A stretch of 38,402 bases of DNA, taken from a virus. A model generated the notes under the pieces. It was not told where the DNA came from, searched no databases, and saw only the letters and a program-made list of their open reading frames with translations. The stretch lies in IMG/VR virus record IMGVR_UViG_3300037316_000192, positions 1 through 38,402 of that record. The stretch is one strand, 5' to 3'. Position numbers and translations under genes: made by a program. This document shows positions 33,428 through 37,636 of this stretch, in pieces (positions within the stretch are counted from its first letter, which is position 1; the number at the start of each line of letters is the position of its first letter).

Positions 33428-34452
33428 CCGCTTTTCCTCACCAGGCCTACCGGCGGCAGTGGCAGCCGCGGGCCCTCCTGCTCCTGCCGGCGCCGACCGA
33501 TCTGGTTTTCGATCACGGTGGCGAACGCCTCGCCGATCGCGCTGGTACCGACGGCGCCCAGGATGATCGGCACAAGGGCTGCGAGGTCGCCGTCGACGCC
33601 GGCGGTCCAGCGTTCGATCAGAAGCCGCGACCTTGTCGCCAAACTCTGCAGCCGTGCCGTGACGAGCTTGAGGCCCTCGGTCTCGAGCCAGAGCTGCGCC
33701 TGGCCGAAGCCCACGATGTTCACACCGTCGTCTGGGAAAAAGTCGGCTCCGACCGCCTGCCCTGCCAAGCCGCTTTCTTCTCTTCCGACCACATCTTGGT
33801 TTATGGTCTGCTCTGCTCTGGTCGTGACGGTCACGGAGTCACGGCGTGACGCATCTGTGGACAAGCCGGCCCACGCCGCCATCAGCAATTTCGGTTCGCG
33901 CGAGTCCTTTAGCGCCAGTTCGCGCTCGAGGCGCTGCTGCTCGGTGATGAAGCCCTGGCGCGCCATCGCGGCGAGCTGCTTCATGCCCTTCTTGCGGTCG
34001 CGGGCGCGCTGCTGCCGATCGGCGGCGGTGTCGTCGACGATGTCGGGGTTGCGGTCCCAGAAACTGACGATCTGGTCCTGGTCGATCCAGCCGATGTCGG
34101 GCGCCTCGAGCTCGGCGAAGATCCGCCCGATCAAATCGGCCTCGACATTCCAGCGCGCCGCCACCCCCTCGGCCGAGAAGTCGCCGACATGGCCGCGCGG
34201 CCGCGAGCGATTCGCATGGTTCTCGAGCCGGATCAGCACGGCCTCGACCAGCGGCAGCGGCGCGTTGGCGCGTTTTGCGACCAGCGACCAGCGGAAGTCG
34301 TCGAGCAGGTCGGTGTGCAGCCGGCTCCAGCTGTAGCGCTTGAGCGTCAGCTTGGCGTTGACGCCCTGCGCGCGCCTGATGCCGGCATCGACAGCCTGCT
34401 CCAGCATGCGCCGGCCCGCGTCGATCGCAGCGTCGGCGTTGCCCCTGCTCAT
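33424..34452 (-). CDS. Replication initiator / replisome organiser-like protein, 342 aa
   Basis: Residues ~35-130 look like a winged-helix replication domain (KLTLKRYSWSRLHTDLLDDF, EAVLIRLENHANRSRPRGHV, GDFSAEGVAARWNVEADLIG, IGWIDQDQIVSFW). A charged linker and a second domain follow. Like lambda O, the gene carries clustered palindromes inside its coding sequence, which suggests the origin lies here. It follows the MT-A70 gene with an ATGA overlap. No helicase motifs are seen, so it more likely recruits host helicase. The initiator role is inference from fold, repeats and place. Confidence 0.65.
   Translation of the reverse strand: MSRGNADAAIDAGRRMLEQAVDAGIRRAQGVNAKLTLKRYSWSRLHTDLLDDFRWSLVAKRANAPLPLVEAVLIRLENHANRSRPRGHVGDFSAEGVAARWNVEADLIGRIFAELEAPDIGWIDQDQIVSFWDRNPDIVDDTAADRQQRARDRKKGMKQLAAMARQGFITEQQRLERELALKDSREPKLLMAAWAGLSTDASRRDSVTVTTRAEQTINQDVVGREESGLAGQAVGADFFPDDGVNIVGFGQAQLWLETEGLKLVTARLQSLATRSRLLIERWTAGVDGDLAALVPIILGAVGTSAIGEAFATVIENQIGRRRQEQEGPRLPLPPVGLVRKSG
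33823..33850. repeat. GTCACG palindrome cluster inside the replication gene, candidate origin
   Basis: CGTGAC-G-GTCACG (33823-33835) and GTCACG-G-CGTGAC (33838-33850) are two perfect 13-bp palindromes in tandem, encoding the linker of the replication protein. TGTGGACAA at 33856-33864 is one base from a DnaA box. The adjacent 33780-33820 stretch is less GC-rich than its surroundings. Confidence 0.6.
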
Positions 34453-35153
34453 GCGCCGGCCCCGATCGTCACCGTGGCGTCGAACTTGCCGGCCTCATAG
34501 CCCCAGCTGTCCCAGCCCGGGCGCGAGGTACGCGAGAACAGCTCGAGGCGCCGCGCGCCTGGCATGTAGCGCTCGCACCACAGATAGGCCTCCTCCGGCT
34601 TGACCGAATGCGCGCGGGCAACACCCTCGATCAGGTTGCGCTCGGACCGCGAGTTCTTCGGCGAGCCGCTGACGCCGATCAGGAACGGCTCGCAGGCGCT
34701 GCGCGCGCGGTAGCCGGGCCCGAACGAGGTTTTGCCCGTGACGGTCTTCTTGTGCCAGGCGCCCCCGGTGACATAGCGGAAGCCCCATCTCTTCAGGCAG
34801 GCGCCGACCGGCGAGCGCGCCGCATCGGCGTTGGTGTAGTGCCGCTCAGGATCGCCGCCGTAGAGCAGCAGCGGCCAGGTGCACCACAGGAACAGGATGG
34901 AATGCGGCGCGGCGAGCTGGCCGACCGGCAGCGCCTCGATATCCGCGAACGGCATCGACCCATAGTAGCGCGCGTGGCTCTTCCCCTCACCCTTCGGCGA
35001 GCGCATTTTCGTCGGCCAGGGCGGGTCGATCATGATCAGCTCGTAGCTGAACTGTTTCAAGGGCCCGAACGGCCAGCTCCTCGAGTCGCCGCAAAAGCGC
35101 CCCTGCACGGTCTCGCCGCGGACGTCGAAGGGGTGGGCGGCGCCCTCGCTCAT
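34449..35153 (-). CDS. MT-A70 family DNA adenine N6-methyltransferase, 234 aa
   Basis: The catalytic DPPW lies at residues 43-46 after YELIMIDPPW. HARYYGSMPFADIEALPV, FLWCTWPLLLYGG and WHKKTVTGKTSFGPGYRAR follow in the order of MT-A70 enzymes, ending with MPGARRLELFSRTSRPGWDS. The start is ATG 35153, overlapping the small membrane gene stop as ATGA. Phage members usually methylate adenines in their own DNA, protecting it from restriction or marking origins. The sequence specificity cannot be read here. It is coupled to the replication gene. Confidence 0.85.
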   Translation of the reverse strand: MSEGAAHPFDVRGETVQGRFCGDSRSWPFGPLKQFSYELIMIDPPWPTKMRSPKGEGKSHARYYGSMPFADIEALPVGQLAAPHSILFLWCTWPLLLYGGDPERHYTNADAARSPVGACLKRWGFRYVTGGAWHKKTVTGKTSFGPGYRARSACEPFLIGVSGSPKNSRSERNLIEGVARAHSVKPEEAYLWCERYMPGARRLELFSRTSRPGWDSWGYEAGKFDATVTIGAGA

Positions 35154-35296
35154 GACAGCACGATCTGCGAGAAGCTGACGCCGACGGCGAGCGCGAGCGC
35201 CGCCGCGATCCAGAACGTGGCGCGGTCGGTCGGGTCGAGGCCTTCGAAATATTGATGGAAGGCGGTGCGGCGCCAGCGATCGCGCAGGAAGTTCAT
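35150..35296 (-). CDS. Small membrane protein, 48 aa
   Basis: ATG 35296 has GAGG about five bases upstream. Basic residues 5-12 (RDRWRRTA) precede a single membrane segment ATFWIAAALALAVGVSFSQI (residues ~26-45), suggesting a cytoplasmic N-terminus. Its stop overlaps the methyltransferase start. The function is unknown; holin-like action is not supported by a single short segment. Confidence 0.62.
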   Translation of the reverse strand: MNFLRDRWRRTAFHQYFEGLDPTDRATFWIAAALALAVGVSFSQIVLS

Positions 35297-35342
35297 TGCG
35301 GCCTCGGCCTTCGAGGGGTGGCACACGGTACGCAACGAACAC

Positions 35343-35437: not shown

Positions 35438-35731
35438 TCAGGCGGCACGCGACTTCGCGCGCGCCGGCGCGTTCGGCCTGCCAGGGCCGCGACGCGCACG
35501 AGGCGTTGCGAAGAGTTTAGCAAGATCGGGGCGCAACACTCTGGCCGGGATGCCAGTCTCGGCGACGAGTTTTGGAAGCAGCGCTTCGCTCACGGTCTGT
35601 TTGCCTGTCTCGATGCGCGACAGGTTCGCTTTGGTCGTCCCTATACGGTCAGCCAGGACCTCCTGCTTGAGGGGCGGGGTCTGGTTAAGCCGATAGGCGC
35701 GAACGGGATTTTGATTCTCCTGCGTCATCAT
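35438..35731 (-). CDS. XRE-family transcriptional regulator (leftward), 97 aa
   Basis: Residues 21-48 hold the helix-turn-helix (LKQEVLADRIGTTKANLSRI), whose recognition helix is TTKANLSRIE. The C-terminus is basic (RARRGPGRPNAPARAKSRAA). It has no dimerisation or peptidase domain of CI size, so it looks like a short repressor or Cro-type protein. Its promoter contains an operator, and the ATG lies about where transcription should begin, so the message may be leaderless. The divergent gene has almost the same recognition helix. Confidence 0.8.
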   Translation of the reverse strand: MMTQENQNPVRAYRLNQTPPLKQEVLADRIGTTKANLSRIETGKQTVSEALLPKLVAETGIPARVLRPDLAKLFATPRARRGPGRPNAPARAKSRAA

Positions 35732-35737
35732 CCCGGC

Positions 35738-35767
35738 AAGTTACGTTGAACGTAACAATCCTGTCAA
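35738..35767 (-). promoter_or_regulatory. Promoter for leftward XRE gene, with embedded operator
   Basis: TTGACA (35767-35762 on the minus strand) and TAACTT (35743-35738) are separated by 18 bases, and the palindrome at 35740-35756 fills the spacer. The ATG starts six bases past the -10, so transcription from this promoter would give a leaderless message. Binding at the palindrome should block it. Confidence 0.65.
35740..35756. promoter_or_regulatory. Operator O1, perfect 17-bp palindrome
   Basis: GTTACGTTGAACGTAAC: both 8-base halves are perfect complements around a central G. This is the best match of the set and overlaps the leftward promoter. Confidence 0.8.
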
Positions 35768-35773
35768 GGGAGG

Positions 35774-35791
35774 GTTACCTTGGACGCTAAC
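35774..35791. promoter_or_regulatory. Operator O2, imperfect 18-bp palindrome
   Basis: GTTACCTTGGACGCTAAC: six of eight half-site positions agree, with a two-base centre. Its centre lies about 34 bp from O1, close to three helical turns. Confidence 0.55.
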
Positions 35792-35799
35792 GACGGGCA

Positions 35800-35816
35800 G
35801 TTACGTCAGGAGTAAC
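35800..35816. promoter_or_regulatory. Operator O3 by the rightward XRE start
   Basis: GTTACGTCAGGAGTAAC is 17 bp with two mismatched pairs. TAACTT at 35813-35818 could be the -10 of the rightward gene, whose ATG lies five bases later; no good -35 is seen. The overlap suggests repression of that gene. Confidence 0.6.
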
Positions 35817-35823
35817 TTGAGAA

Positions 35824-36102
35824 ATGCCCGCCCGAATCGGAAATCCCTCGCGCCGCCGCCGCCATTTTATAAAGGAATGGCGCGAATTTCGCCGGCTCAC
35901 CCAGCAAGAGCTGGCGGATATCCTGAAGACGACCAAAACCTCGATCTCCCGAATCGAAGACCTGAAGACCGGTTATACGCAGGATTTTCTTGAGGCCTGC
36001 GCCGATGCCCTTGGGACCCATGCGGCAACGCTGTTAAGCAGAGCTCCGACGCAGGCCGACTGCGTTGTCGTCGACCTGCCGAAGCCGAGGCGCCAGCGGT
36101 AA
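35824..36102 (+). CDS. XRE-family transcriptional regulator (rightward), 92 aa
   Basis: Residues 25-50 form the helix-turn-helix (LTQQELADILKTTKTSISRI), and the recognition helix TTKTSISRIE differs from the leftward protein at few positions. The N-terminus is strongly basic (RRRRHF); the C-terminus (~70-92) lacks a known domain. The gene starts just after operator O3. AGGAG lies 11 bases before ATG, rather far for a ribosome site, so it may also be leaderless. Together the two proteins look like a CI/Cro-type pair; which is the maintenance repressor cannot be told. Confidence 0.8.
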   Translation: MPARIGNPSRRRRHFIKEWREFRRLTQQELADILKTTKTSISRIEDLKTGYTQDFLEACADALGTHAATLLSRAPTQADCVVVDLPKPRRQR

Positions 36103-36114
36103 GAGAGCGCGAAG

Positions 36115-36510
36115 ATGGACGTCTACTCAAAGAGTGTTCTGACCATAATTGCCGCATTGCTTGCGGTCCTGGTAATCGAGCCTCTTTTCCCAGCCCGGCC
36201 CGTCGCAATAACCGGCGCGGTTCGCGTAACTGCGTTTCCTGCCGACCCTCAAAGGGTTGAACTGACATCGGCCGAACCATTCAAGGTTCGCCTCTGCGAC
36301 GGCGCCCAATGCGCCAATCTATCGCCAATCACCCGCACCATCGGCGGCGTAACGATGACAGACTGGGCTCTCCTAACTGCTTCGCAGAAGGATATTGCCT
36401 TCCCGCCCCAGCCGGAGAAGGTTCAGATCTGCGACGCCATCGGCTCCTGCGCACTGCTGTTGCCCATTGGCCGCGCGTCGGCCCTAGCTGTTACCCCGCT
36501 CACTCGCTAG
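36115..36510 (+). CDS. Membrane-anchored protein, 131 aa
   Basis: Residues 8-24 (VLTIIAALLAVLVIEPL) form a single N-terminal membrane segment or signal anchor, followed by a beta-rich domain with two CDxxxxC patterns (LCDGAQCANL and ICDAIGSCALL) that could form disulfides outside the cytoplasm. It lies right after the rightward regulator and just before operators O4 and O5. Similar small anchored proteins are common in Bradyrhizobium to my knowledge. A lysogenic-conversion or superinfection role is only a guess. Confidence 0.7.
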   Translation: MDVYSKSVLTIIAALLAVLVIEPLFPARPVAITGAVRVTAFPADPQRVELTSAEPFKVRLCDGAQCANLSPITRTIGGVTMTDWALLTASQKDIAFPPQPEKVQICDAIGSCALLLPIGRASALAVTPLTR

Positions 36511-36514
36511 GCCA

Positions 36515-36531
36515 GTTGCGTTTAACGCAAC
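36515..36531. promoter_or_regulatory. Operator O4, perfect 17-bp palindrome
   Basis: GTTGCGTTTAACGCAAC: perfect halves around T, with G/C replacing A/T at the fourth position of each half compared with O1. It lies five bases past the stop of the membrane-protein gene, 34 bp centre to centre from O5. Confidence 0.75.
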
Positions 36532-36538
36532 TTTTCAC

Positions 36539-36567
36539 TTGACCTCTTGTTACGTCTAACGTAACTT
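36539..36567 (+). promoter_or_regulatory. Rightward early promoter with operator O5 in its spacer
   Basis: TTGACC (36539-36544), 17 bases, TAACTT (36562-36567). The palindrome GTTACGTCTAACGTAAC (O5, 36549-36565, one mismatched pair) fills the spacer, as at the leftward promoter. Transcription should start near 36574 and read into the early genes unless the repressor is bound. Confidence 0.7.
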
Positions 36568-36653
36568 TTCCGGGCACGATCAGATTCGTGCGGCCGGGCG
36601 TCATTCCGGTCAGTTCCGAGAGTGACGTCGGCCTTGAGTATCGGTCGGCGGAG

Positions 36654-36713
36654 TGCGCGGGCCGGTCAGAGCCACTCCAGGGTTCGATCCGGACAAACCG
36701 GCCCGCGCATTTT
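36654..36713 (+). terminator. Strong intrinsic terminator in early leader
   Basis: TGCGCGGGCCGGT (36654-36666) and ACCGGCCCGCGCA (36697-36709) form a perfect 13-bp stem, followed by TTTTCTC. The 30-base loop contains GGTTCGATCC, a tRNA T-arm-like element. It lies between the early promoter and the HNH gene, so early expression would need read-through or antitermination, or the leader is itself a small RNA of about 140 bases. Confidence 0.72.
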
Positions 36714-36736
36714 CTCCAGCGCTCATGAGGGAAGCC

Positions 36737-37204
36737 ATGGCGTACAAAGCTCAATTCGGCACCAAGGCGCGCGACTATCTCTATTCGCGCGAGAAGACCG
36801 CGGCTCACCTGGCGGCCCGCGGCAATTTTCCGATCTGCCCGCATTGCGACCAGCCGGTCACCCCCGGCCAGGCATGGGACCGCGCCCACGTCACCGTGCC
36901 GCGCGCCTTCGGCGGCAAGTCCGTCGGCGTCGGGCATCGCACCTGCAACCAGCTCGACAACAACCAGGTGGTAACGCCGGCGGTGGCCAAGGCGGACGCC
37001 GTGCGCAAGAAGCACCTCGGCATCAAGGGCCCCGGCCTCGGCAAATCGCCGATGCGCTGCGGCCGCCGCTCGCGCCAGCGCAAGACCATGGGCCACGGCG
37101 TGCAGCCGCGGCTGACGCATGCCGAGAAGCACGCGGCGTTCCTCAAGGCGCGGTACTTCGTCGAGGTTGACGACGTCGACGGCGCGATCGAGGTGTTCAC
37201 ATGA
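36737..37204 (+). CDS. HNH-type endonuclease, 155 aa
   Basis: ATG 36737 has GAGGGA six bases upstream; ATG 36725 and a GTG at 36653 are less likely. CPHCDQP gives Cys34/Cys37, WDRAHV gives Asp48/His51, and GHRTCNQL gives His67, Cys70 and Asn71, the HNH zinc-and-metal core. The C-terminal ~70 residues are basic (RCGRRSRQRKTMGHG). Phage HNH enzymes may nick DNA for packaging or act as homing nucleases; its place among early genes, not by terminase, leaves this open. Confidence 0.8.
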   Translation: MAYKAQFGTKARDYLYSREKTAAHLAARGNFPICPHCDQPVTPGQAWDRAHVTVPRAFGGKSVGVGHRTCNQLDNNQVVTPAVAKADAVRKKHLGIKGPGLGKSPMRCGRRSRQRKTMGHGVQPRLTHAEKHAAFLKARYFVEVDDVDGAIEVFT

Positions 37205-37557: not shown

Positions 37558-37636
37558 GCGGGGGTAGCTCAGCCCAGTAGAGCGCCGGATGCTTCCCATC
37601 CGGAGGTCGCGAGTTCAAGTCTCGCTCCCCGCTCCA
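37558..37636 (+). tRNA. tRNA-Gly(CCC)-like with 9-base anticodon loop, CCA encoded
   Basis: The acceptor stem (GCGGGGG with UCCCCGC), D-stem (GCTC/GAGC), T-stem (GCGAG/CTCGC) and T-loop TTCAAGT are intact. Anticodon stem CCGGA/TCCGG closes a loop of nine bases, TGCTTCCCA, instead of seven. CCC preceded by T and followed by A is the best anticodon. G1:C72, C2:G71, G3:C70 and U73 agree with bacterial glycine identity. The D-loop AGCCCAGTA lacks the usual G18. The CCA is present in the DNA. Confidence 0.85.

Follow-up and report, generated by a model that had tools for sequence, protein, structure and literature searches.

Two small, divergently transcribed XRE genes, with a set of palindromes about them, raise the question of whether a virus may build a lysis/lysogeny switch of the lambda type from two short proteins that read the same operators. 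The window examined here is the 38,402-base IMG/VR virus record IMGVR_UViG_3300037316_000192, and the operator pattern was scanned over its full length. An earlier note on this DNA had described five GTTAC...GTAAC palindromes that lie only around the XRE pair and the early promoter. The sites are as follows.

35740-35756: O1, GTTACGTTGAACGTAAC, an exact GTTACN7GTAAC site between the -35 and the -10 of the XRE1 promoter, in the spacer
35774-35791: O2, GTTACCTTGGACGCTAAC, an 18-mer whose core is 8 nt long and whose right half is imperfect, lying upstream of the XRE1 -35
35800-35816: O3, GTTACGTCAGGAGTAAC, an exact GTTACN7GTAAC site covering the XRE2 start region and a putative Shine-Dalgarno sequence
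36515-36531: O4, GTTGCGTTTAACGCAAC, of the form GTTGCN7GCAAC, upstream of the early -35
36549-36565: O5, GTTACGTCTAACGTAAC, an exact GTTACN7GTAAC site within the early promoter spacer

The confinement of the sites is borne out. Exact GTTACN7GTAAC is found in the record at O1, O3 and O5 only, and the wider pattern GTTRCN7GYAAC occurs four times, always at the XRE switch region. With a first-order Markov model the wider pattern has a mean of 0.057 occurrences (300 runs, maximum 1), and the exact site appears in 0/300. The uniformity of the five sites is not borne out, O4 being a GTTGC variant and O2 an imperfect 18-mer. The starts of O1 and O2, and likewise of O4 and O5, are 34 bp apart as had been proposed, but with 10.5 bp to the turn this corresponds to 3.24 turns rather than to nearly three. 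O2 and O3 are separated by 25.5 bp, centre to centre. Both have lower symmetry than O1, O4 and O5, perhaps because they overlap the putative -10 and ribosome-binding site of XRE2.

The promoter elements found or proposed around the sites are listed below.

35762-35767, minus strand: XRE1 promoter -35, TTGACA, read from the DNA
35738-35743, minus strand: putative XRE1 promoter -10, TAACTT, with no call by the consensus scan
35763-35768, plus strand: possible, weak XRE2 promoter -35, GTCAAG, 17 bp ahead of GCTAAC
35786-35791, plus strand: putative XRE2 promoter -10, GCTAAC, which forms the right half of O2
35809-35812, plus strand: putative XRE2 Shine-Dalgarno sequence, GGAG, inside O3; CAGGAGTAA is kept in the relative L010
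36539-36544, plus strand: early rightward promoter -35, TTGACC, between O4 and O5
36562-36567, plus strand: putative early rightward promoter -10, TAACTT

The XRE1 promoter has an 18-bp spacer occupied by O1, and the XRE1 ATG is at 35731, some 8–11 nt past O1. O1 and O5 had been placed in the spacers of otherwise good promoters. Their placement stands and the -35 hexamers TTGACA and TTGACC are good, but both TAACTT -10 sequences are poor and a sigma-70 consensus scan called no promoter. The XRE1 mRNA is predicted to be leaderless, because the ATG at 35731 falls approximately at the expected transcription start. Across the 25 related loci listed, TTGAC or TTGTC is found at the XRE1 -35 place, and in all 25 the XRE1 ATG lies ∼7–12 nt beyond O1. 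At the place of the XRE2 -10, most relatives show a GCTAACGAC-like string; in 10/25 loci a half-site is followed by G(C/A)TAA with an offset of 32–34. O2-O1 and O4-O5 are one and the same module, an operator, a -35 and an operator, with operator starts 34 bp apart.

Four genes frame the switch region.

35438-35731, minus strand: XRE1, 97 aa, HTH_3 (E 1.1e-6), in the Cro position and first gene of the leftward operon
35824-36102, plus strand: XRE2, 92 aa, HTH_31 (E 3.2e-8) and HTH_3, in the CI position
36115-36510, plus strand: an open reading frame of 131 aa, function unassigned, between XRE2 and O4 in a rex-like position
36725-37204, plus strand: a zinc-finger/HNH-like gene with CPHC...H..CN residues and an L010 homologue, the first gene past O5, which begins the rightward early operon

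The HTH_3 scores of XRE1 (29 bits) and XRE2 (31.3 bits) are above the Pfam gathering cut-off of 23, and the record has no other HTH_3 match. AlphaFold2 models predict an HTH core with a low-confidence tail for XRE1 (mean pLDDT 84.6), and for XRE2 a fold of moderate confidence (mean pLDDT 73) in which the short post-HTH region has low confidence. In profile comparisons the P22 c2 and 434 repressors are among the best solved matches of XRE2, together with small XRE proteins; XRE1 matches SinR, C proteins and Cro-type proteins. The folds are too alike to separate CI from Cro. No YdaS model appears among the Pfam matches of XRE1 at E 1, which are to HTH_3/HTH_31, and the 131-aa open reading frame has no convincing match in Pfam or PHROG. 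An S24-type repressor was sought with PF00717 and gave no match in the record, which appears cut at its right end within the early operon, with rightward genes reaching the contig end.

XRE1 is followed on its strand by an MT-A70 methyltransferase and a replication-initiation-like gene, and further down by integrase, terminase and structural genes; the large-terminase, integrase and head-tail adaptor genes are all on the minus strand. The PHROG integrase match (E 1e-29) points to a temperate type of gene content. The methyltransferase, of the MT-A70 adenine type (34449-35342, E 4e-29), lies shortly past XRE1, and DNA methyltransferases are also found on the equivalent side of the HTH pair in phages PBC5, RHph_N2 and PPF1. 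On the other side, the leader past O5 (36566-36740) has strong structure (z -4.0); a perfect GC stem of 13 bp precedes TTTT ahead of the first gene, and there is a GGTTCGATCC string that resembles a tRNA T-arm. Early leaders of L023 (z -4.4) and L026 (z -3.2) are also unusually structured; those of most other loci are not. The leader may be an attenuator. A tRNA-Glu(TTC) gene at 37558-37636, inside the rightward early region, is a phage tRNA or an attachment-site remnant; the Rfam search returned tRNA only.

The recognition helices of XRE1 and XRE2, TTKANLSRIE and TTKTSISRIE, are nearly identical, as the earlier note stated, and differ at positions 29-30. That both proteins read the same operators was assessed by alignment of the HTH cores from 23 loci, with residues numbered as in the 434 repressor. 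The residue at position 28 is identical in XRE1 and XRE2 in 17/23 loci against 9.2 expected on shuffling of partners, and 0/10,000 shuffles reach 17, by a statistic that ignores kinship. The residue also appears to follow the operator: with R in both proteins (L052, L053, L058, L070) position 6 of the operator is C in every half-site, and with K in both it is mostly G or A. Residue 28 is mismatched in L045 and L047 (K/Y) and in L034 (P/K). These exceptions, together with the differences at positions 29-30, would fit a circuit of one repressor in which a single protein occupies O1–O5 and the other binds elsewhere, its gene being a bystander. The excess of matched residues and the continued pairing of the two genes across changes of half-site argue against such an arrangement, which is improbable. 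Binding of common operators by both proteins is supported by these sequence comparisons, short of proof.

The relatives used in the comparison were found in two ways, by protein and by DNA layout. A close relative is L010, a 42,278-base virus record in which XRE1 is 76% and XRE2 66% identical over aligned columns. It has degenerate operators at all five positions and keeps both TTGAC elements. In the L010 alignment the O4 counterpart is present, and the TTGAC between O4 and O5 is kept though it was not required for retrieval. The full L010 record has only three matches to GTTACN7GTAAC at two or fewer mismatches, and they correspond to O1, O3 and O5. A search with the XRE2 alignment recovered 11 loci. 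Sites of the GTTAC/GTTGC type are present in L023, L024 and L026, whose full 37–58 kb records have zero-mismatch sites at the places of O1, O3, O4 or O5 only. Frequent occurrence of the motif elsewhere in the genome, which the earlier note had held would refute its proposal, is therefore seen neither in the window nor, at zero mismatches, in the full records of these three relatives. The O1 position is retained in L010, L023, L024, L026, L048 and others, and O3 is at +59/60 from O1 in L010, L024, L026 and L048; it is lost in L023. In the three pairs L027/L028, L029/L030 and L031/L032 the O4-TTGAC-O5 geometry is retained with the half-sites changed to CTTGC, TGTGC and TGTAC. The geometry is thus constant among relatives while the sequence that the proteins would read changes. 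A scan of genome contigs with XRE1 gave weak, partial HTH matches only.

Named pairs retrieved by XRE2 similarity (PBC5, RHph_I1_23, RHph_N2, ppBjS10J-1) were considered as members and set aside, as the operator unit is absent from the stretches read. In Sinorhizobium phage PBC5 and the Rhizobium RHph phages XRE2 is 42–45% identical over 79% of its length, and these phages resemble the window in their divergent small HTH genes but differ in having no O-TTGAC-O unit in those stretches. Phage PBC5 (L006, 3330-3520) shows three direct TTCAGTCA repeats near the HTH gene starts, a different operator type with a related regulator pair.

The second search of IMG/VR was for operator-TTGAC-operator at the DNA level, with no protein information and an allowed spacing of 31 to 40. 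Eight matches are coding repeats of the GNVTGDV type and not switches. With coding repeats and duplicates removed there are 43 distinct pairs in 40 contigs, the window included. Start-to-start spacing is 34 in 22 of the pairs, 35 in 11 and 33 in 8, with one pair each at 32 and 36. Three of the 40 contigs are too short upstream to judge. Among the 37 left, 33 have XRE1/XRE2 profile matches within 2.6 kb upstream, and 29 have both profiles, one per strand; the profiles were built from family members and were not used in the layout search itself. In two further contigs, L042 and L033, HTH proteins of other kinds lie upstream of the layout match, which brings those with HTH genes to 35/37, and a further matching palindrome is found upstream in these 35. 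L061 and L068 have neither an HTH gene nor a further palindrome nearby, and their matches are unexplained or due to chance. As a negative control, the GTTGC-first layout is absent from 754 whole bacterial genomes of two classes (385 and 369); the layout therefore does not readily arise by chance. In L045, L047 and L052 the intergenic and downstream regions are both full operator-TTGAC-operator units, which makes the two promoters almost mirror images of each other. By eye, paired repeats are seen round divergent HTH genes in Pseudanabaena phage Pam5 (L085) and the Devosia plasmid NZ_CP063402.1 (L087), where the strict script did not detect them; these suggest an equivalent layout with other half-sites.

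Such comparisons also bear on whether the palindromes might be RNA hairpins acting as terminators, or sites for a host regulator, in place of phage operators. O4 is followed by TTTC and scores as terminator-like. The O4 sites of several relatives have no T run, yet the spacing round TTGAC is kept, and O4 as a terminator was rejected. Half-sites vary from phage to phage, and the HTH proteins of each phage vary with them, which counts against both origins. A host site is further disfavoured by the absence of the GTTGC-first pattern from the 385 and 369 genomes, and no SOS-type (LexA-type) box GTTCN7GTTC is present in the window. Either origin is very improbable.

In L042 the XRE2 position is occupied by a 247-aa protein with HTH_3 and Peptidase_S24 domains (E 1e-12), ∼0.8 kb upstream of 6286. 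This suggests that a repressor was swapped on a fixed promoter scaffold. It also bears on the assignment of roles, which may be CI for XRE2 and Cro for XRE1 as judged from gene position, from L042 and from a weak similarity of profiles. The roles could be reversed, with XRE1, whose leaderless promoter is the stronger, as the lysogenic repressor and XRE2 as the Cro-like protein. The genes that are leaderless in their switches are lambda cI and CP-933P paaR2 (PMC8630535), and here the predicted leaderless gene is XRE1. In PY54, however, both repressor genes are leaderless (PMC4488713). Moreover, XRE1 stands at the head of the strand on which the replication-like, terminase and structural genes lie, the S24-type CI of L042 is in the place of XRE2, and the operator pair next after XRE2 has the position that OL/PL has after cI. 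A reversal is accordingly considered unlikely.

The preferred reading, for which we judge the probability to be high, is a lambda-like lysis/lysogeny switch with XRE2 in the CI position and XRE1 in the Cro position, in which both early promoters have the order operator, -35, operator. XRE2 would be the lysogenic repressor and XRE1 the lytic one. The two early promoters would be a leftward P_XRE1 for the XRE1 operon and a rightward P_early for the HNH-like gene and onward. In a lysogen, XRE2 dimers on the O2-O1 and O4-O5 pairs would shut both, and may bind cooperatively. XRE1 would compete for the sites of XRE2 and, from O3 and O2, on the ribosome-binding site and -10 of XRE2, would turn XRE2 off; a preferred order of site filling may be presumed. 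The sequence of XRE2, one open reading frame and the O4-O5 promoter is parallel to that of cI-rex and OL/PL. Points against the model are the weak -10 sequences, the lack of a promoter call, the loss of O3 in L023, the imperfect O2, and the short, low-confidence post-HTH region of XRE2. The proposal of a compact CI/Cro-like switch of two short proteins is supported by the layout in ∼35 contigs, the covariation of residues and the lack of an S24 repressor match in the record.

Among known systems, lambda is similar in its divergent HTH pair, three sites between the genes, a second set of operators and promoter downstream of the repressor gene, and operators over early promoters. It differs in that the repressor here is short, an HTH protein lacking S24, there are two OL-type sites rather than OL1–3, the operator pairs 34 bp apart flank the -35, and the predicted leaderless gene is in the Cro position and not that of cI. 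The immB regions of N15 and phiKO2 have three OR and two OL sites, equal in number and placement to those here, and their relative PY54 has leaderless repressor mRNAs (PMC4488713). These are linear-plasmid (telomere) prophages of enterobacteria, likened here by site number and placement. CP-933P has a CI analogue, PaaR2, without CI sequence similarity or an S24 domain, paired with an XRE-type Cro analogue, YdaS, and it also shares overlapping operators, a leaderless transcript and an extra PL-type promoter; it differs in its four 18-bp intergenic repeats, in its CII analogue YdaT, in an operon that includes toxin-antitoxin genes, and in a leaderless gene that is the CI analogue (PMC8630535). 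CI analogues without S24 are thus already known elsewhere, as are layouts with three OR and two OL sites. The earlier note had pointed to two short single-domain proteins in place of a long repressor; the lack of an S24 repressor match in the record agrees with this, but a pair of short regulators is the norm among relatives, and PaaR2/YdaS is a precedent. Rhizobium phage vB_RleM_PPF1 has a divergent HTH pair with a GTTGC-type palindrome between and an O4-TTGAC-O5 unit at 34 bp; it differs in an XRE2 of the L078 subfamily (53% identical to L078), whose C-terminus is longer. The open-access literature yielded no study of the vB_RleM_PPF1 switch.

The locus may be one of a widespread class of phage switch, a reading that we favour slightly. 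Members would share a promoter unit that does not vary (two operators ∼34 bp apart with the -35 between them, and a leaderless gene in the Cro position), half-sites and both short repressors that change together, and a repressor without S24, so that something besides RecA-stimulated self-cleavage would have to trigger induction. This switch, with its fixed operator-(-35)-operator unit, specificity series and spread, was not found described in the open-access literature; an earlier description is possible. The finding raises the question of how prophages are induced when their repressor is without a self-cleavage domain. The ∼35 matched sets of repressor, repressor and operator on one fixed scaffold are a natural series, and they offer a candidate residue-to-base rule open to direct test, in which K or R at helix position 28 would go with G/A or C at operator position 6. 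The signature can be recognized from DNA alone and finds immunity regions in unannotated phage contigs.
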